Source: a virus
Length of the DNA stretch: 31,002 bases
Strand: one strand, 5' to 3'
IMG/VR virus record: IMGVR_UViG_3300030104_002831
Location: 1 to 31,002 of that record
Shown: positions 1 through 16,743 of the stretch, in pieces
Layout: every line of letters begins with the position of its first letter
Numbering within the stretch: position 1 is the stretch's first letter
Notes under the pieces: model-generated
Seen by the model: only the letters and a program-made list of their open reading frames with translations
The model's database searches: none
Told to the model about the DNA's origin: nothing
Translations under genes and position numbers: made by a program

Positions 1-3000
1 AAATTTCAGCGGCGTCAGCTATCTCCTGTTGTGCTTTATCGCTATAACGAACTGTACCTTGATTTTTGTATTCTTCTTTTACTTCCTTACTAATATTTGG
101 GTTAGCAAATATAATTTGTTTAAATCTTTTACTATCCATGTTTCTTATGGCCTCTGTATCAGCCATTAAAACCATTAGCTCTCTTACTTCCTTGGGTACT
201 TTTGGAAACTCTGTTTCTAATATAAAGCTTAAGTCTTCCGGTGATACTAAATCAAAACCAATGTTGTCTTCTATATATCTAGCTACTTTACCGGCATCTT
301 GTTGCCAACCCTCAGGCATTGTTTCACTGTTCATGAAAAATACCTCGCCTTTAGAGTTAGAGAACATAACATTAGCACCTCTATCTATTTTCATACCAAT
401 AGTAGCTATAGTAGCGTCTGTAATGTCGTGCTTACTTAAAAACTCCTCGCTATTAATAACTTCCATGGTAGCATCGAAACCTAAATACCACGCCATTAAA
501 TCAATAAGAGAATCTTGCTTTGAAGCTGGTCTACCTTGTCCTTCTGGTGGATTTAAGAAATTATCTATCCACTCTTGCTCAACCTCCGAATAAGGTTTTT
601 TCCTGTAAAGACTTGGTCCAGAATTTATATTAGTATCTTTTGGAAGTTTTCCTTCAGCTATAAGCTCTTTAACCCTTGTTGGGTTTATGTTTTCTTCAAC
701 TAACTCGTAAAAACCAGGGAAACTCTTATTAAATACTTCTTGTGGAAAGAGATTGTATAAAAGCTTTCCATTTTTTTTGATAAAATCTTGATACTCTACA
801 GAACCAGGCGTGCCCATCATTTTCTTTAGCTTATTAAATAACCTATCTTTCCAGTATTTTTTAAGTTTTGTAGTGAATTTTTTATCTAGTATGTTGTCGG
901 CTCGGTAGTTTGTGAGAACTTTTTCCAATGTCAAACCCATAACTCTCACCACGCCTTCTTTTATAAAATAGTAAAGCGGATCTCCTTTTTGAGTAACCTC
1001 ACCTGTTGCTGGGTCTACTATTTCTCTTTTTATACCTAATATATCCAATAATTGACTATATGTTATGTCATTCGTGATAACAGCGTCTATATCTACAAAC
1101 TCTTGAGATTCTATATCATTAACAAAAGAACTTTCGTCTTCTATACTTACATCAAAACGTTCTTTAGTACCAGCATCGTCTTTTTTAAATACATTTTTAG
1201 CTTTATTCCCAATTTGAGAGTTTATCCAACCAAAAAGACTATCGTTAACCTCTGGGTTAAAGTTTCTAATGTGGGTTATGAGCTCCGCGTAAGTAGATTG
1301 TATAAAGTCTTCTTCAGAAAAACCAGGCGGCTTTTCATATGGTATTTTTGACTTAATCAAACCGTCTAATTCTCCAAAAATCTGTACTATAGCTTCATCA
1401 GCACCTGTGCTATCCCACTCCTCTTTAGTCATTTTACCTAAAGCATCAATTTTTGGTTTTAAATCAACAGATGAAGAAAACATTGTCGGACCAGTTACGT
1501 TTGCCTTAACTCTATTTACAGGTGATTTATTACTTTGAATATCTCTAACGTAAGCGTTTAACCAGCTTAATATATCGTTAGGGTTGTTAAACTCTATATT
1601 CTCGTAACCGTTTTCTCTAAGTTTGTTTTCAACGTCTTTACCAACCGCCCTTAAAAACGTTTTAGTTGGTTTTATTTCTTTTTTAAGTACCATATCTACA
1701 TAAGCAGTTAGGTATTCTTCGACGTGATTTGGATCATTCCACACCTTCTGACCTTCTTTATTTATCTTAGTTCCAGTGTCGTAGCTAGCGTTAACTCTTT
1801 GTGTTATAAGTGCAAGGTCTTTTTTAGATAATAATTTTAGAAAACCAATAACTGTTTTTACACCTTCTGTAGTTATATTACCAGTACCATCTCTTAGCGA
1901 CGCGCCGAATATATAATGTACTACCTCGTGTTGCGCCACTGTTACAGCTCCTTCTTCTATAGCTACTTCTTTGTTTATATATATTTTTTTAGTATTAGGA
2001 TTGTACCAACCATCTTTTGTCAGGTACTCAGCTATTTCAGCTTTTGTAAAACCTTCGTCTATTAAATGCTGTTCTAATTCAGCTACAGTATTAAATATTT
2101 GGAAAGTACCTTCAGCTGTCCACTCTTCACCCTTTTTTATACCCTCATTAATCAGTCTCTCATTAGCTTTATTCTTAATTTGAACCATTAGATTATTTAT
2201 ATTATCTAATTGCTCGTCATAATATTTTAAAAGCTCTAATCCTTCTGGGTTTGTTGGATCATATTTTAAATAATTATCTTTAATATCTTTTCTTTCTCTA
2301 GCAATATTATCATACTCCTCTTTAAGCTGTAGCATTTGCGCTACTTCTAACTGGGTTAAGTAATCAAATTTACTAGCTTCCTTTTTTAAAAACTTTACCA
2401 ACTCATCTTGTAAACTTTTTATTTTATTATAATATGCGTCTTTTGCGTTTTGAGTTTTAGCTTTTAACATTGCTTCGTGGGCAGATTGTTGTTTTGAAAG
2501 ATTATCTTGCACTGTTTTTATAACGCTTTTATCTCTCCACATTACGCTTTTAATAGCTTGACCTCCTCCAGATATAAAACCACCACCAACAAACCCCATT
2601 AAAAACCTTTCTAAACCTTCTTCAGAAAACATCTGATCAAACGCCATTTCTAACGCCTCGTCCATTGAATATCCCTGCGCTAGAGCTCTGTTTATAATCT
2701 CAGTACCAAACTGACCAAACTCCGTTATACCCTCTGTAGAACCCGTTGTAAATATAGTTGCTATAAACTTACTCTTACCAGCGTCGCCTAGTAGTGCTTT
2801 TTTTATACTTTTAAAACCAATTCTTTCCATCACAAAAGCAGCAGCTGCTAAAACACTAGGTGTAAACAACTCGTGTTTTTCTTCTTCGTATAATTTCGTC
2901 ATAGCATCTTCCTCGCTTAGTTCTGGATAGTATCTTTTAGCTAATTCTAAATTATAATCAGTAACCATAGGCGCCCATATTTGAGGCGCTAAAGACCAAC

Positions 3001-4351
3001 CTCTAGACAAAAACGCAGGAACAAGGGTTTCCATCATACTATTCACGGCCAGTAGACCTCCTCCAAAAAACTTAACGGCATCTCCCTCTTTGAAACCCTT
3101 AACCATGTGAACATCCATTTCTTTTAAAAGCTTCTTATTAGCCATTAGCATTTCTATATTTCGAGCTAATTCAGCAGTGTAGTAATCACCAACTTGTACT
3201 TCTGGATTATTTAAGTAAACATGTTTCCAACCGTCTTCAAGGAGTTGTTTAGCCCATTGGTCTTGGTTTGTTGTGGTAGCAAAATTATACTTTTCTATAA
3301 CTTGTTCTTTAGTGTATAAAACGCCATTTGTGTCTAGCCAACCAGCATCCCCACCATCATAACCACCGATTAATCTATCGGCTAAAGTACTGTTATCGCC
3401 AATGTAATCATTAAACATTACTTTAGGCTGTATAACAAACGCGTTGTACATCCAGTTAAAATAATTATTATCCCAATTACTTTTTAAGTCCGACTGTATA
3501 TCATATAGTTTTTTCCACGTTTCTTTCTTTGTGAGTCCCTTAAATATTTTAGATATTAAAACAGGAGCCGTATCAGAGTCTGGATCCGGATCAGTTCTGT
3601 AAGGCATTATATCAACCGTGCCTTTAGGATCAGCTTTTTTATTCTTTACAAAATCTCTTTTTTGTTTATCTAAAGAAGGGCCAGATGGATCATAAACAAA
3701 GCCTTCTAGTTCGGTTCCTTCATACTGGTTTCTAATAGCGTCCATTTGGTTTTCAAACTTTATGTCTTCAACAACGTCGTCTCCTATAACATCATCTTCG
3801 TTAGGCGCTACTTTTTTGTCTTCTATGATAGGTATTTCTTTTAACACGAAGTTTATTTCATTACCAGCATCATCAACCCACATGTCATCTACTATTTCAC
3901 CGTCTTTTTTCTTCGGTTTTACATTTTTAGGTGGGTCGTCTACTACGTTAGATAGGTCTATTTTTTTACCTTCTTCATAATCGCCACCTATAACAGTGCC
4001 TTCGTATGTTAATTCGCTATATTCTTCAGTCTCCTCCTCTTTTTCCTCTTCTTGATTTAGATTAAATTTTTTATCAAATTTTTCTTTAAATTTAATAAAC
4101 TTATCAGTAAAATCATCGTCAGGCTTAACTGTAACCTCTGGTAATTCACGTGGTTCGGTATCATCTTTTCCTTGTGGACTACCAAATTTACCAAAATCAG
4201 GCAACTCATCTTCTTTGGTTCTATAAGCAGAGTCAGGTGAGTTGTAAGTATTTACAACTTGTTCAATATCAGACTCAGTAACGTTTGGTTCGTTCTCTAT
4301 AATCTGATTGATAATATTTTCTAACTCCTGACTATTGTTTGGTGTAGACAT
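1..4351 (-). CDS. Giant internal/ejected virion protein with zinc-metallopeptidase motif (partial, C-terminus beyond window)
   Basis: The frame is open from the ATG at 4349-4351 to the left edge, giving 1450 codons without a stop. Visible in order: an acidic low-complexity N-terminus (about 1-210); a mixed region with Gly-rich hydrophobic stretches between about 425 and 600 (FFGGGLLAV, LAAAAFVM, GFVGGGFISGGG); a charged helical, probably coiled-coil part (about 600-720); then AVTVAQHEVVHYIFG with HEVVH at 808-812 and EEYLTAY at 878-884, which fits a zincin with a downstream Glu ligand. Another patch (about 1014-1075) has the sequence HIRNFNPEVNDSLFGWIN. The start lies 1 base after the stop of the 803-aa gene, so it is the last visible gene of the tail/ejection operon. 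Very large multi-domain proteins with peptidase domains in this position are known from phages (polyvalent-type proteins) and are thought to enter the cell with the DNA. That role is inferred here. Confidence 0.8.
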   Translation of the reverse strand, partial: MSTPNNSQELENIINQIIENEPNVTESDIEQVVNTYNSPDSAYRTKEDELPDFGKFGSPQGKDDTEPRELPEVTVKPDDDFTDKFIKFKEKFDKKFNLNQEEEKEEETEEYSELTYEGTVIGGDYEEGKKIDLSNVVDDPPKNVKPKKKDGEIVDDMWVDDAGNEINFVLKEIPIIEDKKVAPNEDDVIGDDVVEDIKFENQMDAIRNQYEGTELEGFVYDPSGPSLDKQKRDFVKNKKADPKGTVDIMPYRTDPDPDSDTAPVLISKIFKGLTKKETWKKLYDIQSDLKSNWDNNYFNWMYNAFVIQPKVMFNDYIGDNSTLADRLIGGYDGGDAGWLDTNGVLYTKEQVIEKYNFATTTNQDQWAKQLLEDGWKHVYLNNPEVQVGDYYTAELARNIEMLMANKKLLKEMDVHMVKGFKEGDAVKFFGGGLLAVNSMMETLVPAFLSRGWSLAPQIWAPMVTDYNLELAKRYYPELSEEDAMTKLYEEEKHELFTPSVLAAAAFVMERIGFKSIKKALLGDAGKSKFIATIFTTGSTEGITEFGQFGTEIINRALAQGYSMDEALEMAFDQMFSEEGLERFLMGFVGGGFISGGGQAIKSVMWRDKSVIKTVQDNLSKQQSAHEAMLKAKTQNAKDAYYNKIKSLQDELVKFLKKEASKFDYLTQLEVAQMLQLKEEYDNIARERKDIKDNYLKYDPTNPEGLELLKYYDEQLDNINNLMVQIKNKANERLINEGIKKGEEWTAEGTFQIFNTVAELEQHLIDEGFTKAEIAEYLTKDGWYNPNTKKIYINKEVAIEEGAVTVAQHEVVHYIFGASLRDGTGNITTEGVKTVIGFLKLLSKKDLALITQRVNASYDTGTKINKEGQKVWNDPNHVEEYLTAYVDMVLKKEIKPTKTFLRAVGKDVENKLRENGYENIEFNNPNDILSWLNAYVRDIQSNKSPVNRVKANVTGPTMFSSSVDLKPKIDALGKMTKEEWDSTGADEAIVQIFGELDGLIKSKIPYEKPPGFSEEDFIQSTYAELITHIRNFNPEVNDSLFGWINSQIGNKAKNVFKKDDAGTKERFDVSIEDESSFVNDIESQEFVDIDAVITNDITYSQLLDILGIKREIVDPATGEVTQKGDPLYYFIKEGVVRVMGLTLEKVLTNYRADNILDKKFTTKLKKYWKDRLFNKLKKMMGTPGSVEYQDFIKKNGKLLYNLFPQEVFNKSFPGFYELVEENINPTRVKELIAEGKLPKDTNINSGPSLYRKKPYSEVEQEWIDNFLNPPEGQGRPASKQDSLIDLMAWYLGFDATMEVINSEEFLSKHDITDATIATIGMKIDRGANVMFSNSKGEVFFMNSETMPEGWQQDAGKVARYIEDNIGFDLVSPEDLSFILETEFPKVPKEVRELMVLMADTEAIRNMDSKRFKQIIFANPNISKEVKEEYKNQGTVRYSDKAQQEIADAAEI

Positions 4352-4352
4352 A

Positions 4353-6764
4353 TTAACTGTATTTTTCTATTAATTCACGACTTTTTGAAGTCAAACTTTT
4401 ATCTTCCGCCGCACCACTGATAAGTGTTCCTCGTGTATACTTCGCGACTAGTTCCTTAGCGTTAAGTTTTGGCTTTGGCTTAGAATTATTAAATTCTCTT
4501 TTTAAATAACTTTTTAAAGCTATTTTAACAACATCTTCTAAATAAGCCTCGCTAAACTCACTGTGGTTAGGATGTAAAGCGCTTATAGTTTCACTACCAT
4601 ACATTTCAGCTAAATGACCAGCTATATCTATCCCTAAGTGGTCTTCACCATCCCAAAGAAAAGATAGTTGTGCTTCCTTGTCTTTAGCCATTTGCGATAC
4701 TAAAGCATCTACATTACCCTCGCTATAGGCTTCACCTGCTTTAGCGGATTGCCTTAGTTGGTTTACCGCTGTGCCATATAGGGTCATGCTTTCTAGATCT
4801 GTTTGAAAAACATTATCTGTTAACTGAGAAGAATTATATATTTCATCTACACCGTCTACTTTGAAAAATATCTCAGGTTTACCACCTCCCATTATAGCCA
4901 TTTTAACTAAGGGACTTTCTGAATAAACCAAATCAGCCATAAACATGTTATCTATTTTAGAACCTTTTGATAGGTTATTATCTGTTTTTGCCTCAATCCA
5001 TAAAGCTTTGTTTTCAGCTATAACATTAAATTTAGAAGCGACCTTTTTTAAGTCCATCATTGTCGTTTCTATTTGGTTTTTACTAGCAGGATCTCCTTGT
5101 TGGGACATTTGATTTATTATTTCTTTTTGTTCATTCATAAACCTACCTATCTCCATTTTAGCATCTGAACCTAGGGTTTCAACTGACTTTTCATCGCCAA
5201 ATAAGCTTAAGTTACTTATATATTCGTCTGTCATTTTATCAACCTTATCGGGTGTTAAAACACTCATAACGTCCCATATGTTTGACCTAGGTATATTGAG
5301 ATCTTGGGTTGGTACTTCTTCATTGTTATCTGCGGGTAGATTTTGTGTTACCACCTCTTCGTTAGGATCCGCGGGTAGATTCTGCTCTATGTACTTAAAA
5401 GGACCTGGGTTTAACTTGCTTTTTCTACCAAGCCTATATTGAAGTGCTGATTCTTTATTACTATATTTAACAGGTGAAATATACTTACCAGGACTTTCTT
5501 GGCCATAACCACCTGGATTAGTATAGTTGTAATTAGAATACTGATAACCTTCTTTGTTTCTTTGAGAGCCTAAAAAACCACTTCTAACCACTTTACTACC
5601 ACCATATGTTGTTTTAGGATTATCACCAGACCTATTGTACTTATCTCTATTTCTTGCTGCCCATCTACTTTCCTGAGGAGATGAGACGTCATTTCTATAA
5701 AAATGCCTTTTTCCATCTTTGTAAACAGACTTCACATGTGGACCTATACTCTCGTTATATTGTTGCTCGGTTATTTTAAATGTTTTTCCTTTGCTTTTTA
5801 TTTTGTATATTTTTTCACCTTTATCATTCTTTCCAACATCTTTAACGGTAAAACTACTAGGATTACCGCTTTTGTCTGTTGGCAATAACTCATCAACAGA
5901 TTGTAGTGGTTTTCCCTTTATATCAACACCATCTCCAAATTTCACCTCAGGACCTTGGTATTTAAATTCTGGATAATCAGGATTTAAAACGCCAGCAGAA
6001 ACATTTGTTACGGTGTTAGTGTTGTTAACGTCTGTGGTTTTATTATTAACAATATTTTCTTGGTTGGTGTTACTTTTTTTATTATCAACTTTGTTTACGT
6101 TGGGATCTACGACATCAGGTTCTACGACATCAGGCTCAACTACATCAGGTTCTACTACGTCAGGTTCTACTACGTCAGGTTCTACTACGTCGGGCTCGAC
6201 TACATCAGGCTCTACTACGTCGGGTTCATCGTCTTCAACTACTTCGTTTGTATTTTGGTTAGTTGTTTTGTTTAAATCACCATCACCGGTTTCTATGTCA
6301 CCACCTTCGCTATTTATGCTATTGTCTACTTGACTGTTGTCCGTTTGACTATTGTCTGTTTGACTGTTGTCTATGTCTTTATTTATATCGCCTTCAGCGT
6401 AATCACCACCTACGTTTTGTTGGTTTTCAATATTTTGAGTATTGGTAGAATTATCAGTATTTATAGTCGTAGAGTTGTCTGTGTTTTCTGTATTAACATC
6501 TCCATAATAATTGTTCGTGGTTCCACCAGGTTTACCACCTTGTGTTGTAGCATCTTTCTTGTTTAACCTACTTCTAACACGATCGAAAGACGAATTAAAA
6601 GCCTTATCAAAAGCATTGACATCCCAATCACCAGCACTTAAACTGGTCTCGCCTCCCGTTTGATAGTTAGACCACGCTGCGCCTTTCACTAACGTCTCGT
6701 TAATTTCTAAAGGAGATTTTTTCTCCTGTTTTTTCTTGCTTGTAAATAATATTCTTCTAGCCAT
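4353..6764 (-). CDS. 803-aa repeat-bearing virion-associated protein
   Basis: Unrecognised by function, probably structural or ejected. The basic start ([19 protein letters not shown]) is followed by a [20 protein letters not shown] segment near 48-66, then an Asn/Thr/Asp-rich low-complexity stretch (about 80-260). That stretch contains DNSQ(T/V) repeats (132-149) and eight exact EPDVV pentapeptides (180-219). A Lys/Tyr/Gly-rich middle follows, with a duplicated LPADxNEEVxTQ segment near 5300-5385. The C-terminal 300 residues look globular and mostly helical, starting near [18 protein letters not shown]. It sits between the Ala/Gln-rich internal virion protein (12 bases after that gene's stop) and the giant metallopeptidase protein, which suggests a shared role in the particle interior. 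The plus-strand frames inside it are shadows of the repeats. Confidence 0.8.
6108..6227 (-). repeat. Eight tandem 15-bp units encoding (EPDVV)8
   Basis: Eight in-frame 15-base units encode Glu-Pro-Asp-Val-Val at residues 180-219 of the 803-aa protein. The units are not identical in DNA: third positions vary (GAA/GAG, CCC/CCT, GAC/GAT) while the peptide is exact, which indicates selection on the protein rather than a fresh slippage product. The result is a stiff, strongly acidic linker between a low-complexity N-terminus and the rest of the protein. Confidence 0.9.
6318..6371 (-). repeat. Short tandem DNSQ(T/V) repeat
   Basis: Residues 132-149 of the 803-aa protein read [18 protein letters not shown], a second array with 15-base periodicity about 90 bases away from the EPDVV array. 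The two arrays have unrelated unit sequences but the same unit length. It forms part of a long Asn-rich disordered linker. Confidence 0.75.
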
Positions 6765-6776
6765 GTTATATTTTTA

Positions 6777-7448
6777 TTATTCCCAGATTGTACCTGCTTT
6801 CAAATTACCCATAAAAGAACCTGTTTGCCCACCAGCTCCTCCTTGAATTCCTTTTGTTAAACCGCCAGCCAAAGCGCCACCAATAGAACCTATACCTGAC
6901 GAAACAGCGGCTCTTGCTCTTTGTCTAGCCGCATCAGCAGCTCCTTTTCTTTGCTGAGCCATTCCTAATAGTGTTTCTGCTTTATCTTTTTCTTGCGCTC
7001 TAGAATATACCTCTCCTTTTCTTTCCATCATCTGTATATTACCAGCCATTTGAGCTTCTTTCATTTGGTTGGCAGATTCTTGTTGACCAATAGAAGCTGA
7101 AGCCGCTTGAGCTTGTTGAGCGCCTTGATTAGCCATAGCTTGTGCTAAACCAGCAATACCAGAACCACCAGCAGCGCCTTGCATACTCTGCATAATGTTT
7201 GCTTGATTTTGTTGGTTTTGTTGAGCCATGAAATCAGCTTGCTGCGTGTTAACGGTTAGATCTTCCATAGTATTCTCCATATTAAGATATGGGTTACTAG
7301 TATCTAAGTTCTCATACGTAGCCTTTCTTTTTGCTAGTTCTCTAGCTGCTGCCTTTTGCTCTCTTCTACGAGCTCGACCACCAGAAAGTGCCATACCTAT
7401 TTTTGCAGCCCCACTGGCTACACCTACTCCTACTAATACGAACGACAT
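6777..7448 (-). CDS. Ala/Gln-rich internal virion protein (ejection-protein-like)
   Basis: 223 aa. The N-terminus (SFVLVGVGVASGAAKIGMALSGG) is hydrophobic and Gly-rich and could insert in a membrane. It is followed by a basic patch (RARRREQKAAARELAKRK) and a long helical Ala/Gln/Met-rich body (QQADFMAQQNQQNQANIMQ and later). The C-terminus is another Gly-rich segment (about 180-210, SSGIGSIGGALAGGLTKGIQGG). This architecture, small with a helical Q/A core and glycine-zipper-like ends, is that of internal virion proteins of short-tailed phages such as the T7 gp14 type, which build the DNA-translocating channel. No catalytic motif is seen. It begins right after the stop of the cupin gene (3 bases) and precedes the 803-aa gene. 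Function is inferred from composition and position. Confidence 0.75.
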   Translation of the reverse strand: MSFVLVGVGVASGAAKIGMALSGGRARRREQKAAARELAKRKATYENLDTSNPYLNMENTMEDLTVNTQQADFMAQQNQQNQANIMQSMQGAAGGSGIAGLAQAMANQGAQQAQAASASIGQQESANQMKEAQMAGNIQMMERKGEVYSRAQEKDKAETLLGMAQQRKGAADAARQRARAAVSSGIGSIGGALAGGLTKGIQGGAGGQTGSFMGNLKAGTIWE

Positions 7449-7451
7449 AAG

Positions 7452-7916
7452 CTATTTGTTTTTGTTAATATATTTTTCATATTCTTCATAATTTTTTGAA
7501 ACAATTTCTGCTTCTAGTTTGTCTAAATCCTGTGTATTGCTAGGGTTTTTATGTATATTTACAAATATACTATCCTCATTAGCAAAAATAACTCTTTTAA
7601 CACCAGGCGTTGAAACAACGTAACACGGCGCTATAAAATCTTCTTGTGCATTTTCTGTAGTAACAGTTATATTACCAGTTAATAAAAACCAAACATGTAA
7701 GTGGTTATGTATTGCTCCAATTACAGCTGATTCTTTTTTCATACTCATTTGTCTAACGTATATACCGTCAGCAAAAGAATGCTTTAATGGAAAAACTTCA
7801 GACCTAACTATACTCTCCCCCTTGTTGCTTATAATGTTTTTTCCATCTGTATTATCTATTAGAACTTTTTCAAGTTCTAGTATACCTTTTCTTGATACTA
7901 GTTTGTTTTTAGACAT
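7452..7916 (-). CDS. Cupin-fold protein
   Basis: 154 aa. The core GAIHNHLHVWFLLTGNITV (67-85) matches the first cupin motif (Gly, His-x-His, then Gly), with His70, His72 and His74 as possible metal ligands. The second motif is degenerate: APCYVVSTPGVKRVIFANED (96-115) keeps the Pro-Gly and Asn positions, but the usual His is replaced by Arg108. His122 follows in FVNIHKN. The last 25 residues are charged and helical (LEAEIVSKNYEEYEKYINKN). Cupins are small beta-barrels that bind metals or sugars, and enzymatic activity here is uncertain. It lies between receptor-binding/virion genes and internal virion genes, so it may be a particle component or act on host sugars. The start is preceded by an A/T-only leader in a 42-base gap. 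Confidence 0.75.
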   Translation of the reverse strand: MSKNKLVSRKGILELEKVLIDNTDGKNIISNKGESIVRSEVFPLKHSFADGIYVRQMSMKKESAVIGAIHNHLHVWFLLTGNITVTTENAQEDFIAPCYVVSTPGVKRVIFANEDSIFVNIHKNPSNTQDLDKLEAEIVSKNYEEYEKYINKNK

Positions 7917-10836: not shown

Positions 10837-13800
10837 TTAATCTAAATCACCTAAATCCTCAATAACTATAATTGAGTTACCAGTAGCGCCACCGCTAACA
10901 TCAGTTGGTATATCTATTCCTTGTGTGTTAAATTGTTGCACATCTAAATCAGTAATTGAAGTTCCATAATCTTTTCCTTTTATATAGTTAAAGTATTTAC
11001 CTTCTTTTTCTTTAAATTCATTTATTAATCCTGTTTCTAAATTAGTTGTAATCTCACCAGTGTACCAACCATTTTGCCCTGTTATATTATAATACTCCCC
11101 ATCAACGTTAAAAGCTTGTGTAGTAAAATAATTTTCCGAACCTTCATAGTTTAACGTGTTAAACGTTTTAACCGACCCAGGCGAATCGTTTAGTAGAACC
11201 GTTACGCTAGGTTCATCATATATTTCGTTTGAAGAACCAGGGTAATAAGTGGCGATTTTACTCCCAACGTAGTGCTCGTACATGCTACCACCTTTAAAAG
11301 TAAAGAATTTATTATTTGTTGAAACACCCGCTTCTTGCATCCAAGACTTTAAACTAACCCAACCACCTACGTTTTCACTATAACTAACTGTTTTTGGTAG
11401 AACAGGTGTTTCTTTAGGAGCGTACCATAGTTTTAATACAACTTCATGAGCGTCTACATCAAGATTTCCAGAAACATGTTGAACGGTTCCTACTGTGTAG
11501 AACGCGTGATATATTGTATCACCAAAAGTATCTGTACCATTGTTTGACAAATATGTATGTGGAACGTGTCCTAAGAGCGCAGGAATACTGTCAACACATG
11601 TACCTGACGAGCAGTCAAATCTTTGATAATAAGGTGCAACGGACTTAAAAACAGCTCTACCCGCTGTTGGATCATTAAAATCTGTCACTTCAATATAAAG
11701 ATCAACAGAAACACTATCATATAATGCATATCCTAGATTTCCCACCAGCGAAGTATCAACAAGGTTTACGCCGTTGTTTATTATGTTTTGCCCATATACA
11801 TCAGTTATAGACATAGTAATGTTTTTTACTAGGTGCGCTTGACCTACAGCGGCTCCAGTTGAACCATAAAAACCAACGTCACCACTATCTAATGCTATAT
11901 TTTCTTCCCACCAAGAAAAGTTATTATCACCTCCAACAGCAGGGTTAATAGTACCCTTATTGAATTGAATACCTCTACCACCATTACCAACTTTACCTCT
12001 TACGTGGTTCCAAGTAGTCGACGGTGGTATATAAGTTGATTCACTATTATCAGCAGGAACATTGTCTATACTGATATGGTACATACCCTTACGTTCGTCC
12101 CAACTACCAATTATAGAATTTATATTACCTTTGAGTCTATCGTGAAAATAATCTCTCATTCCAGCTTCAGATATAGGTGTTAAGCCATCAGCTGACAATC
12201 TCATTATAGCCCCTCTATCTTTGTCTGAGAAATAAGATCTATAAGAATCAAATGCGAATGACTCAGGATTTCTAGATATCCCAAACTCCCCTGCGTAAGG
12301 TATAGCTTGACCTAAAACATTGTTATTAGCTGTAACATTACTGTTTCCGTCAGCATTATATAACGCGTCCTTATTAGCTAATATTTTTAATATTTTATCT
12401 TCACACAAAGCTATTAAATCTCCATCAGCAGTAGATCTTGAATGTAATTTTTGTATACTACCATAAGCTGGTTGTAAATCTTTTGTTATAGCTTCCGCTT
12501 GTATAAATTGATTTAATCTATTAACACCACTAGAGCTATTAAATATACCGGAGAATATAAGGCCACTCCACTTTCTTTCTTCCATATATTGTTCAGCTAG
12601 AGGCATAGACACTTTAGGTCCTTTATCTATTAAAGGTGTGTTGTAATCATCTCTAATTCTATTTGACTCCACGCCGTTAGCAAAAGAATAACAGTTATAC
12701 CAATCTAGTGGATTCCAACTACCATGATAATAGTAATTGTCCCCAATAGGGTATGCTGGACTAGCTTCGTAATATAAATCTAAACCAACATCTTCTTTGG
12801 GCTCTGTTTCCCATATAGCTGGATTATCACTCGTAAAGTCAGAATCTTCAGCATATTCTACATCAACAATTTCAATAGTTCTTTTTTCACCACTTTGCCT
12901 TCTTTCACAGTTATTACAATTGTTCCAGTGGTTACCATCGCCAAGAACAAGCATGTGCCTAGGATCGTAATTAGTTAATATTTGCTGAACACCGCCAGGT
13001 AACTCACCCGGTGTACCGTTAACTGTTGGTATAGGTGGTGAAAATCTAATGTAAGCTCTTCTTCTGTGGTTACCACAATCATAATAATCATCACCTGGGT
13101 ACTTATCATTATCGTAGTTTTCTAGCTTAGCTTGTTTTACATTTGCACTACCGTCTGGAGAACCCTCTATTTCGTAAACATTTGTGTCGCCCTGCCATCT
13201 AAATCTTGTACCAGTTCTTGTTATGTGTTTCCAAAAAGCTTTTTCCGCGTCGTTAGTTTTGTGATCTCGAGCCGGGTCTCTATCTGTATCATCGTCACAT
13301 AAATGACTATAACTAATCATCATTGAATCAGCGACTACATCTGAAGAGTTTTGACCATGCAACCCAGAATCAAATAAACCTATACCAATAGGATGTAAAC
13401 CGGATAATTTAGCCCAGTTTGAACTACCGCTAACACCATTTGATGCGCCGTTGCTAGATCCAAATCCAGAACCCGAACCACTTGTTATATAAGAGTTACT
13501 AAATCTACCCGAGCTATTAGGAGGGTTACCATCAACACCAACACCATCATAAGGATCAGTGTTAGCCGTACCTGTTGAACTCCAACCAATAGTACCTGAC
13601 CCGGTAACACCAAGAGCTTGGCCATTTTCAGGGCTTGAAAGAAAAGAAGCTCCCATGACAGACGATTCGTCTAAGAAAAAACCTCTTCTGTCAGCCGTGC
13701 TGTCTGAATTGTACCACGTCTCTTTATGACCAGATTTACCCGCGTGCCTTGCTTTTATTCTTTGTAATTCTTGACTTTGTAGAGTGAAATAAGTAGGTTC

Positions 13801-16743
13801 TCCTTGGCCTACCAATATGTTTTGTTCTAAAGTTATATCTCTATGTATTTTAACAAAAAACCTACCTTCAAATTCTGGTAATTGAGCTATAACTTGTCTA
13901 GCTAATTCTATTTTTAAGTTAGGTTTGTATTCTAAAGGATTTGCACTTGGATCCACCGTGGTGAAATGCATGTCAAAGCTAAATGGTTTAGTAGCAGATA
14001 GTCTCATATGGTTATTTACCATATTTTTACCAGCAACAGTATACCATCTAGAGGCGTGCTCATCAAGTTTGACTCTAAATACTAAAACATCTGGATCATC
14101 ACCTTGCCCGAAGTTGTCACCGTAATTATCTTCCCAAAGAGTTTTTGGTATATCTACAGTTCTAGCGCCCTCTTTTGGCTCACCGTCAACTCCAAAGTCA
14201 CAAATAACAGAACCCATTGATCTTTGTTGTGTTTTTACGAATGTAGGTGCCTCATTGTTTATTGCTAAAATCTTATACCTAGCATCAGCTTTAACAGCGG
14301 TATCGTTGTCATGTTGTTTTTTAAGTATTATATAAGTCTCCTCATCTACCTTGTTTCTTTCTGATGAAGGAAAAGAAAGCCAAACGTTACCATCTTCAGC
14401 GTCATAAAAACGATCCATAGCTAAATTATAATACTCGTTAGAAGTTTCTTTTATAAAATATTTATAGTGAGTTGCCCAGTGTGGAGCTGATGGATAACTT
14501 GGACTTTGGAAAGTACCGTCATCTAACCTAACGTTTAAAAAGTTATAACTAGTTGCCTCTGATTTTTCTACTTGTATAGTACCGCTCTCGTCTGTTAAAA
14601 CGGGTGTTTGTCTACCAAACTCATCCATATATACAACTCCTATTTGGTATTTCCTTATTGACTTTATAGATTTTTCAGGTTTAGCAGCAACGCCACTTAT
14701 TGTTTGCCAAGGTGAAGGGCTTAAAACTCCAGTTGAACTTCCAGTTGTGTCGAAATCTGGATCATAGTTTAGTGGTTGATCACCACCAAAAAGACCGTAT
14801 CTATTTTTACGTGGACTCAAACGAATCATAAATTTAGGAGATATAGTTTTTCCATTTGCGCTTTTTAAGTCATATTGCTGCAAGTAATTACCATATATTA
14901 GTCTATTGCCAGAAACTTCTTGGGCTAAAGCTTTTCTTGGAACGTTATCGTAAGGTCTTAGTAGTTGGTTAGCTGGTACAGCCGCGTGTATAAGTTCGGA
15001 TTCTATTTTTAAAGAACCCTCTGGGTGTTTTTCAAATAGCGCTTTGTCTGCTTCTGAAGGATACTGAGAGGTTAATCCAGAAGGAAAATACTTGTCAACA
15101 GGAGCACCTACAGATGGATCAGTATATTTTATTTTTCCATCCCAACCAATATCAGCTGGGGAGTTCTGCGTGCCTAATGTAGTATTGGCTACCTCTGGCC
15201 CTTTAATTGTTTTTACTGTATATACGTTTGTGGAATTTGATTCTTTGTAAAGCACATCAACCTCAACTACGTCTAAAGGTGTTTTGTGCTTCATTAAGCT
15301 TGAATCCTCGTGAGTTGGGTTAGGTAAGAACTTGGAAACAACTAAAAACCTTATTTGGTTTGACATACCTAGATTGTAACCTTTTTTTGGAAAATAATCA
15401 AATTCACCAGGTAAAAAAGCTACCTCCGAAAAAGGAGAGTAAGCGGAGTATTCCCCATCTTCATACTTCCACCTGTAAGCAAACCTTGGAAATTTAAATT
15501 CAAACAAAGGGGTTTTTTGTTCTAGTTTTGCTTCAAATGAAGCTGGATTTCCAGTCTCATCAACCGTTACTATACCGCTACTTATTGATAGGATTTCAAA
15601 TTGTATTATTGAACCTGATGTAAAGGTTGTCATATTTACTATTTGTATTCTAGCCACAACCGACTCTGAAAAATCGCTAGCACTGTTTTGGTAATTAAGT
15701 TCTAACGTGTCTCCAGGTTGCCAAGAAGGTGTTGTACCTGATAAGATTATGTGTAAAACATTTACACCATCACTTTCAACACCAGCTGTAAGCGGTTCCC
15801 CTATATCTGGCCCGGCCGCGTAGGTAAAATTATAATTAATTATTGCCTCTGTTTCCGCCCCTCCATAATTACCAAACCCACGTTCAGTTGTTTGCATTGT
15901 TAAAACAGGTGGTGTTATAGGGAACTTCTTAGCAACGGTTACGTGTTCTTCAAGCATCCTACCTTTATTCGCTCCCATTACCCACAAACTAGTACAACCA
16001 TTAACAAGGTTAGCATTTAAACTACCGTATTTACATCTTGTAATATTTATTTTTTTAGGCTCTGTATTGTTGTCTGTCCACAGTAGTAAATCCTCTAATA
16101 TATTTACACCAGTGATAAGATAGTTAGGGTCAAATCCTAGTGTTCTACCTCCTCCAACTGAAAACTTTAAAGTACAATGGTCAGGTATAGTAGCTGGAGA
16201 GGTCAGTTGAACCATCCAACCAGATACGTTACCATAACTAGCGCCTTGCACTTCAAATGGACCTAGCACATTACCCGTCGCTGGATCATGAGCGGTAAAT
16301 GTCATTCCTGGTTGAATACCTAGTAAAACTGAACTAGCTTGGCCAGCGGCAACAGGCATAAACACATTGTTGTTTAAAGCCCCGTTTATTTTTGTAGTAA
16401 CCGAGTGGTACTCTTGAAAAACAACAGCTACAGTATCTAAATCTACATCATACTCATAAATAAAATCTACTTGAGTGCTAGATCCTTCTAATGAAGTAGC
16501 AAACCAAATAACTTTATTTTCCTTTTCCCAAACTATAGAACCTATACATTTTAAACTTTCGTTCGCTGTGCCTGAGGCTACGATTTTATTACCCCAGAGC
16601 GTCTGTACGGTACCAACCGCAGATCCTTCTGAAGTAGAAACTTCTACATTTAATGCGTCTCTATATTCACCGTTAGGAACTAATCTCTCGTCGAGATCTT
16701 TGTTCATTCTCCCCGCGGTGAACTGATGATTAATCTCAGCCAT
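10837..16743 (-). CDS. Giant tail protein (stabilisation/muzzle-like)
   Basis: 1968 aa. The N-terminus INHQFTAGRMNKDLDERLVP followed by NGEYRDALNVEVSTSEGSAV carries the signature of phage tail stabilisation proteins, including the large muzzle-type proteins of crAss-like phages. The bulk is beta-rich. The conserved-looking stretch YNCYSFANGVESNRIRDDYN lies near 1350 and GDLIALCEDKILKILANKDA near 1455. Cys1276 and Cys1279 (NNCNNCERR), with His1272 nearby and DCGNHRRR about 55 residues earlier, could form a metal site. It follows the ring/adaptor genes with a 3-base gap and precedes the adhesin candidate. It most likely forms the distal short tail closing the portal channel. The size and N-terminal motif are the strongest evidence. 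Detailed structural assignment is inference. Confidence 0.75.
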   Translation of the reverse strand: MAEINHQFTAGRMNKDLDERLVPNGEYRDALNVEVSTSEGSAVGTVQTLWGNKIVASGTANESLKCIGSIVWEKENKVIWFATSLEGSSTQVDFIYEYDVDLDTVAVVFQEYHSVTTKINGALNNNVFMPVAAGQASSVLLGIQPGMTFTAHDPATGNVLGPFEVQGASYGNVSGWMVQLTSPATIPDHCTLKFSVGGGRTLGFDPNYLITGVNILEDLLLWTDNNTEPKKINITRCKYGSLNANLVNGCTSLWVMGANKGRMLEEHVTVAKKFPITPPVLTMQTTERGFGNYGGAETEAIINYNFTYAAGPDIGEPLTAGVESDGVNVLHIILSGTTPSWQPGDTLELNYQNSASDFSESVVARIQIVNMTTFTSGSIIQFEILSISSGIVTVDETGNPASFEAKLEQKTPLFEFKFPRFAYRWKYEDGEYSAYSPFSEVAFLPGEFDYFPKKGYNLGMSNQIRFLVVSKFLPNPTHEDSSLMKHKTPLDVVEVDVLYKESNSTNVYTVKTIKGPEVANTTLGTQNSPADIGWDGKIKYTDPSVGAPVDKYFPSGLTSQYPSEADKALFEKHPEGSLKIESELIHAAVPANQLLRPYDNVPRKALAQEVSGNRLIYGNYLQQYDLKSANGKTISPKFMIRLSPRKNRYGLFGGDQPLNYDPDFDTTGSSTGVLSPSPWQTISGVAAKPEKSIKSIRKYQIGVVYMDEFGRQTPVLTDESGTIQVEKSEATSYNFLNVRLDDGTFQSPSYPSAPHWATHYKYFIKETSNEYYNLAMDRFYDAEDGNVWLSFPSSERNKVDEETYIILKKQHDNDTAVKADARYKILAINNEAPTFVKTQQRSMGSVICDFGVDGEPKEGARTVDIPKTLWEDNYGDNFGQGDDPDVLVFRVKLDEHASRWYTVAGKNMVNNHMRLSATKPFSFDMHFTTVDPSANPLEYKPNLKIELARQVIAQLPEFEGRFFVKIHRDITLEQNILVGQGEPTYFTLQSQELQRIKARHAGKSGHKETWYNSDSTADRRGFFLDESSVMGASFLSSPENGQALGVTGSGTIGWSSTGTANTDPYDGVGVDGNPPNSSGRFSNSYITSGSGSGFGSSNGASNGVSGSSNWAKLSGLHPIGIGLFDSGLHGQNSSDVVADSMMISYSHLCDDDTDRDPARDHKTNDAEKAFWKHITRTGTRFRWQGDTNVYEIEGSPDGSANVKQAKLENYDNDKYPGDDYYDCGNHRRRAYIRFSPPIPTVNGTPGELPGGVQQILTNYDPRHMLVLGDGNHWNNCNNCERRQSGEKRTIEIVDVEYAEDSDFTSDNPAIWETEPKEDVGLDLYYEASPAYPIGDNYYYHGSWNPLDWYNCYSFANGVESNRIRDDYNTPLIDKGPKVSMPLAEQYMEERKWSGLIFSGIFNSSSGVNRLNQFIQAEAITKDLQPAYGSIQKLHSRSTADGDLIALCEDKILKILANKDALYNADGNSNVTANNNVLGQAIPYAGEFGISRNPESFAFDSYRSYFSDKDRGAIMRLSADGLTPISEAGMRDYFHDRLKGNINSIIGSWDERKGMYHISIDNVPADNSESTYIPPSTTWNHVRGKVGNGGRGIQFNKGTINPAVGGDNNFSWWEENIALDSGDVGFYGSTGAAVGQAHLVKNITMSITDVYGQNIINNGVNLVDTSLVGNLGYALYDSVSVDLYIEVTDFNDPTAGRAVFKSVAPYYQRFDCSSGTCVDSIPALLGHVPHTYLSNNGTDTFGDTIYHAFYTVGTVQHVSGNLDVDAHEVVLKLWYAPKETPVLPKTVSYSENVGGWVSLKSWMQEAGVSTNNKFFTFKGGSMYEHYVGSKIATYYPGSSNEIYDEPSVTVLLNDSPGSVKTFNTLNYEGSENYFTTQAFNVDGEYYNITGQNGWYTGEITTNLETGLINEFKEKEGKYFNYIKGKDYGTSITDLDVQQFNTQGIDIPTDVSGGATGNSIIVIEDLGDLD

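Follow-up and report, generated by a model that had tools for sequence, protein, structure and literature searches.

The giant protein P0001, encoded at the beginning of the window (the whole stretch of DNA analysed here, bases 1-31,002 of the linear 45,028-base virus record IMGVR_UViG_3300030104_002831), holds two neighbouring domains. Conservation and structure modelling strongly support a zincin fold with a complete H808/E809/H812/E879 site, and the residues 966-1068 downstream of it form a block for which our analysis suggests the fold of sigma-70 region 2. We propose, at a probability that we would put at about one half, that P0001 is a polyvalent cargo protein whose zincin cuts the protein itself and frees its modules, and whose sigma-2-like module attaches to the RNA polymerase of the host. 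A zincin in such a giant protein is of a known kind; its pairing with a sigma-2-like domain in a cargo protein seems to be new. The literature searched gave no example of a sigma-like domain that is delivered by a virion, though the coverage of this search was incomplete and it makes weak evidence.

Since the window starts at base 1 of the linear record, the 3' part of the P0001 gene is missing; inspection of the open reading frame (ORF) gives a complete N-terminus, 1450 visible residues and a C-terminus cut by the contig end. The initial annotation, made from the letters of the DNA, had described a protein of at least 1450 residues with HEVVH at 808-812 and EEYLTAY at 878-884, and we read the same: the ORF opens with ATG, meets no stop before the window edge and carries both motifs exactly there. 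The sigma-region-2-like domain that follows the protease, which is the most unusual part of the protein, was absent from that annotation.

Zincin domain

Relatives of P0001 were gathered via the portal gene and via alignments of the zincin region, which together gave 119 giant ORFs, five contigs being reached both ways. An eight-member diverse alignment was too divergent for scanning, and two closer zincin-region alignments were used in its place. For the conservation counts, 95 sequences below 80% identity were aligned with a profile. HExxH occurs in 118 of the 119 relatives, against 0.5% of the shuffles of P0001 and 1 of 420 shuffles of complete relatives; the single natural variant is HDTGH, in L168 (4108-7260). 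Among the non-redundant relatives the four most informative columns are E879 (95/95), H812 (90/90), H808 (89/89) and E809 (89/90), and the same four are the sole invariant columns of a 56-sequence alignment, the spacing from HExxH to the Glu varying from 46 to 108 residues. A second zincin search used the patterns IYINKE and EYLT..D; as neither of them contains HExxH and all 39 aligned members that they brought in keep the equivalents of H808, E809, H812 and E879, the conservation of HExxH did not arise from the way in which they were retrieved. One of these patterns includes the Glu, so the case for E879 rests on the wider set. The zincin profile matches 119 of 119 zincin-retrieved relatives, as well as gp18 of the cultured Flavobacterium phage elemoF.

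In an AlphaFold2 model built from the 56 sequences, which was read for fold and secondary structure, the zincin has three strands and a core that is mostly above 90 in the predicted local distance difference test (pLDDT); helix 118-132 bears HExxH and helix 191-202 bears E879 (model numbering). VIA-align pairs residues 708-951 with the lethal-factor catalytic domain, at Z 6.5 over 170 residues. It is the lethal-factor superfamily to which Iyer et al. assigned the metallopeptidases (MPTases) of polyvalent proteins, whose architecture is an HExxH helix with a Glu on the following helix (PMC5512222). The zincin motif called in the initial annotation holds, as the relatives keep HExxH and the later Glu, and the model puts this Glu on the helix after the HExxH helix. 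Pfam touches the domain weakly, by Peptidase_M78 in 12 of 56 members and by SprT-like in 5 of 56; no Pfam model calls the zincin clade of P0001, and nothing significant was returned at the zincin of P0001 and its giant relatives. The site would be expected to bind zinc and to be proteolytic.

Sigma-70 region 2-like block

A jackhmmer search from residues 960-1110 collected 103 sequences, and in 93 of the 119 relatives the block lies downstream of the zincin, at a median gap of 34 residues (range 15-292). The most frequent Pfam match among 53 members is Sigma70_r2 (5 of 53, best E 7.8e-5), which on the window fragment itself gives E 0.0022 and 18.2 bits, below the cut-off of 24. A sigma factor family of PHROGs matches the window protein at E 0.0028, and in profile searches of the PDB sigma factors made up 6 of 7 and 13 of 13 matches, at E 0.02-0.5. 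There is also a weak motif match to sigma-70 region 2 around FNPEVNDSLFGWI, and the conserved positions of the block include F/Y1031, P1033, L1039, Y/W1042 and R/K1050.

When the first model was compared by VIA-align, the top rows were sigma70, sigmaE and sigmaS with Z about 8 and 2.7-3.2 Å over 88-91 residues, the best of them being sigma region 2 (Z 8.1, 2.7 Å over 90 residues); for a second AlphaFold model, made from a different alignment, sigma region 2 took 47 of 50 rows. No single one of these looks is decisive, and the sigma-2 interpretation has weight because Pfam, PHROGs, the PDB profiles and the two models agree. Region 2 being the part by which a sigma factor holds RNA polymerase, binding of the polymerase by the block may be suggested from the predicted fold. 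A helix-turn-helix of region 4, which would serve -35 recognition, was not listed for residues 1070-1450, a part that was barely tested in a protein that is truncated.

Virus type, gene order and layout of P0001

The two muzzle domains, crAss_MUZ and crAss_MUZ_C, each score 28.6 bits in the muzzle protein, over the curated cut-off of 27, and PHROG head-and-packaging families are matched by the terminase, the portal and three more virion proteins, the likely major capsid protein among them. The muzzle, portal, terminase and capsid genes form one block with P0001 on the same strand. The portal is 26-50% identical to the portals of the flavobacterial podoviruses Maribacter phage Panino, the Flavobacterium elemo phages, Cellulophaga phi38:1 and phi13:2 and Tenacibaculum phage Gundel, and of one environmental genome. 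Judged by these sequences, the virus of the window, a marine one, is a podovirus of flavobacteria whose muzzle is of the crAss type.

The window repeats the gene order of elemoF, namely terminase, portal, capsid, tail, a muzzle-sized protein, small proteins and a giant protein, which in elemoF is gp18 (3694 residues), annotated as 'structural protein'. In crAss001, proteins carried as cargo within the particle are encoded by genes after the muzzle (PMC10172136). Because the order matches that of elemoF and the crAss001 cargo genes follow the muzzle, P0001 appears by synteny to occupy the position of ejected cargo. The initial annotation had spoken of a polyvalent ejected protein; both the crAss-type synteny and the polyvalent class fit this description, and ejection itself would follow by analogy. 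In the papers that we found on virion proteomics of relatives, these giant proteins are not reported.

Features of the window discussed in the text
Feature	Position	Strand	Basis
P0001, giant cargo-position protein	2..4351	-	ATG start, 1450 codons without stop up to the window edge
Acidic, probably disordered head, residues 1-260	3572..4351	-	composition; almost no relatives align
Block of residues 328-660 with glycine-rich hydrophobic stretches	2372..3370	-	common to 66 sequences
Predicted zincin metallopeptidase domain, residues 779-942	1526..2017	-	profile match, AlphaFold, fold match
HEVVH, residues 808-812, predicted to supply the general base and two zinc ligands	1916..1930	-	conservation
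E879, predicted third zinc ligand on the following helix	1715..1717	-	conservation and model
Predicted sigma-70 region-2-like helical domain, residues 966-1068	1148..1456	-	sequence profiles and models
Conserved helical block, residues 1116-1450	2..1006	-	common to 48 sequences
803-residue protein, position of second cargo protein	4353..6764	-	synteny
223-residue small protein rich in Ala, Gly and Gln	6777..7448	-	phi38:1 and elemoF have a 'virion structural protein' at this position
Muzzle (tail tip) protein, crAss_MUZ and crAss_MUZ_C	10837..16743	-	Pfam, E 5e-7 and 2e-6

The acidic head noticed in the initial annotation is confirmed by 57 D/E against 24 K/R in residues 1-200, and jackhmmer with residues 1-300 found one relative only. 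Gly-rich hydrophobic segments are present as well (16 Gly within residues 501-600). The usual threshold for a membrane helix is about 1.6 in 19-residue hydropathy, and as the best value in P0001 is 1.39 we rejected these stretches as transmembrane helices. Their description as membrane-active, which rested on composition, is therefore unsupported, and hydropathy gives no support to a crossing of the envelope through the glycine segments. For the block of residues 1116-1450 no known fold has been found so far. A tblastn search with the whole P0001 gave no near known phage, and a scan of the whole protein against PHROGs gave no match.

No relative of P0001 was found in the bacterial genomes searched, and so the family looks phage-only at the sensitivity of the search. 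We considered and rejected a shared ancestry with the giant proteins gp101 of phi38:1 (L093), gp127 of phi13:2 (L094) and CDS0069 of Panino (L086): they stand in the same position, but have no HExxH and no profile match, therefore the position is kept and the content differs. The giant protein of Gundel (L095, 10109-17554) contains HEFGH and matches an acetyltransferase weakly; its gene is located before the terminase and not after the muzzle. Another giant, UOF82488.1 of MW202828.1 (L096), contains two HExxH sites (HEFGH at about residues 1615 and 2500) and possibly two zincins.

Among the neighbouring genes, the 803-residue protein carries a run of about eight PDVVE repeats, and a 154-residue protein at window positions 7452-7916, between the muzzle-side and the cargo genes, matches PHROG short tail fibre families. 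Phage genes for GroES and GroEL are found at record positions 31507-31764 and 31748-33316 (L004 5479-5736 and 5720-7288), and occur also in related phages.

Likeness to known systems and other modules

P0001 resembles the polyvalent MPTase proteins (Iyer et al. 2017, PMC5512222; for example P1 DdrB and N4-like proteins) as a giant late-gene product in which unrelated domains are joined, with the HExxH helix and a Glu on a later helix in a lethal-factor-like fold, and with modules that exist also as stand-alone proteins. It differs from them in the host group and in the partner domains, and has no match to the polyvalent-named Pfam models; the word sigma is absent from the text of that paper. 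The late structural-gene setting is found at the P0001 locus. The chain of P0001 holds a zincin and a sigma-2-like domain; relatives add a HAD domain, and two add a P-loop kinase. The HAD motif is present in 57 of 84 complete relatives, at a median of 821 residues after the zincin. The kinase (zeta-toxin/AAA_33) lies in the C-terminal half, at about residues 2235-2377 of L098 and about residues 2776-2914 of L106. In L106 it is close to the HAD motif, perhaps as a kinase-phosphatase pair.

For polyvalent proteins it has been described that a domain may occur both fused and on its own (PMC5512222). Outside the window, the virus's own genome has a stand-alone gene for a HAD-type phosphatase (L004 11478-12026), which matches about 80 collected sequences with a fused homologue. 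Its stand-alone sigma factor of 251 residues, over the Pfam cut-off, is encoded at record positions 44082-44837 (L004 18054-18809), also outside the window; some ten related phages were noted to have similar stand-alone sigma genes.

Another parallel lies in the N4 virion RNA polymerase (PMC12633501), which is about 3,500 residues long, is ejected and has an HExxH domain, C1. N4, however, brings its own T7-type polymerase, whereas in P0001 a sigma-2-like domain stands beside the zincin and no polymerase motif was seen. The crAss001 cargo proteins gp45, gp46, gp47, gp49 and gp50 are likewise large products of genes after the muzzle, stored in the capsid and tail and ejected; gp47, gp49 and gp50 differ from P0001 in being related to RNA polymerase, and the portion of the report used here describes no zincin or sigma domain for them (PMC10172136). 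In elemoF, gp18 (YP_010108995.1) follows the same structural genes and matches the zincin profile at E 3e-18, with HEIFH and a later Glu, but it has DUF3293 and no detected sigma-2 block. Finally, residues 966-1068 share the region 2 fold with the sigma-70 factors (RpoS, RpoE, RpoH, RpoD), from which they differ by being embedded in a giant protein, with no region 4 listed for its visible, barely tested C-terminal part, and by a sequence score below the family cut-off.

A crAss-type virion RNA polymerase inside the giants is not supported, since the giant relatives have no convincing DxDGD and gave three isolated matches only; in elemoF no RNA polymerase gene is annotated. These negatives cover the giant relatives and the elemoF annotation, the window genome being incomplete, and on their account early transcription in such phages would be carried out by the host enzyme.

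Proposed function and alternative explanations

According to our proposal, P0001 would be packed in the capsid close to the portal, travel through the tail in a partly unfolded state during infection and refold in the host. The zincin would most likely cleave the long chain in which it lies, either inside the particle or once in the host, into separate modules, and the freed sigma-2-like module would most likely bind the host RNA polymerase, by which the phage could steer or block host transcription ahead of all expression of its own genes. Since these phages would have to rely on the host enzyme for early transcription, a sigma-like piece that is delivered could be of help there. Packaging, ejection and self-cleavage are inferred here. 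A bolder version, in which the particle carries the sigma-like domain together with its own zinc protease, and the domain, freed on entry, captures the host core at once and replaces the virion RNA polymerase of related crAss phages, seems to us rather unlikely.

Several observations weigh against our proposal. The sequence scores of the sigma-like block stay under the curated cut-offs, its Foldseek E-values are above 0.3, helical bundles can reach Z near 8 by chance, and a profile comparison of the block with the phage's own stand-alone sigma factor gave no match. Moreover, 26 of the 119 relatives have no detectable sigma-2 block, and neither has elemoF gp18 despite its zincin, so the block is not universal in the group. 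Low scores, a Z of about 8 in an all-helical domain and the negative comparison all favour a block that is merely a sigma-2-like helical bundle, structural or DNA-binding, which makes no contact with RNA polymerase. We take this as a real, if somewhat doubtful, possibility, as profiles from three separate libraries and two models point to sigma region 2 and to little else.

The function of the zincin may also be seen differently. It could be an effector that cuts a specific host protein after entry (for example a defence protein, or a sigma or anti-sigma factor), the rest of P0001 serving as a vehicle for delivery and targeting; the active site is intact and invariant, and IrrE/M78-like and SprT-like enzymes, which act on specific proteins, speak for such a role. 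Iyer et al. give it as an alternative for polyvalent MPTases (PMC5512222). We nevertheless find it unlikely, for in the relatives the zincin lies at a median of 28% of the protein length, embedded between conserved blocks, and this suits processing equally. It also counts against self-cleavage that the virion polymerase of N4 retains HExxH in its zincin domain and yet enters the particle unprocessed (PMC5512222; structure in PMC12633501). The HExxH domain of P0001 might serve folding, a structure that depends on zinc, or packaging, and cut nothing, as may be true for N4 C1. The near-invariance of the general base E809, unneeded for zinc binding alone, makes this distinctly unlikely in our opinion. 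That P0001 is a late-operon assembly factor which never leaves the infected cell we regard as very unlikely: self-cleavage could serve assembly, but a structural annotation has been given to the giants of the related phages elemoF, phi38:1, phi13:2 and Gundel, and crAss001 cargo was detected in virions by mass spectrometry (PMC10172136).

Significance

A protease placed beside a sigma-2-like domain offers a testable answer to the question of how transcription starts in crAss-related phages that have no virion RNA polymerase, and the pairing would add a transcription module to the toolbox of polyvalent proteins. The profile of four invariant residues lets unannotated giant proteins of marine flavobacterial phages be recognised. 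If our proposal is true, the particle of such a phage may deliver its own tool for hijacking of host transcription.

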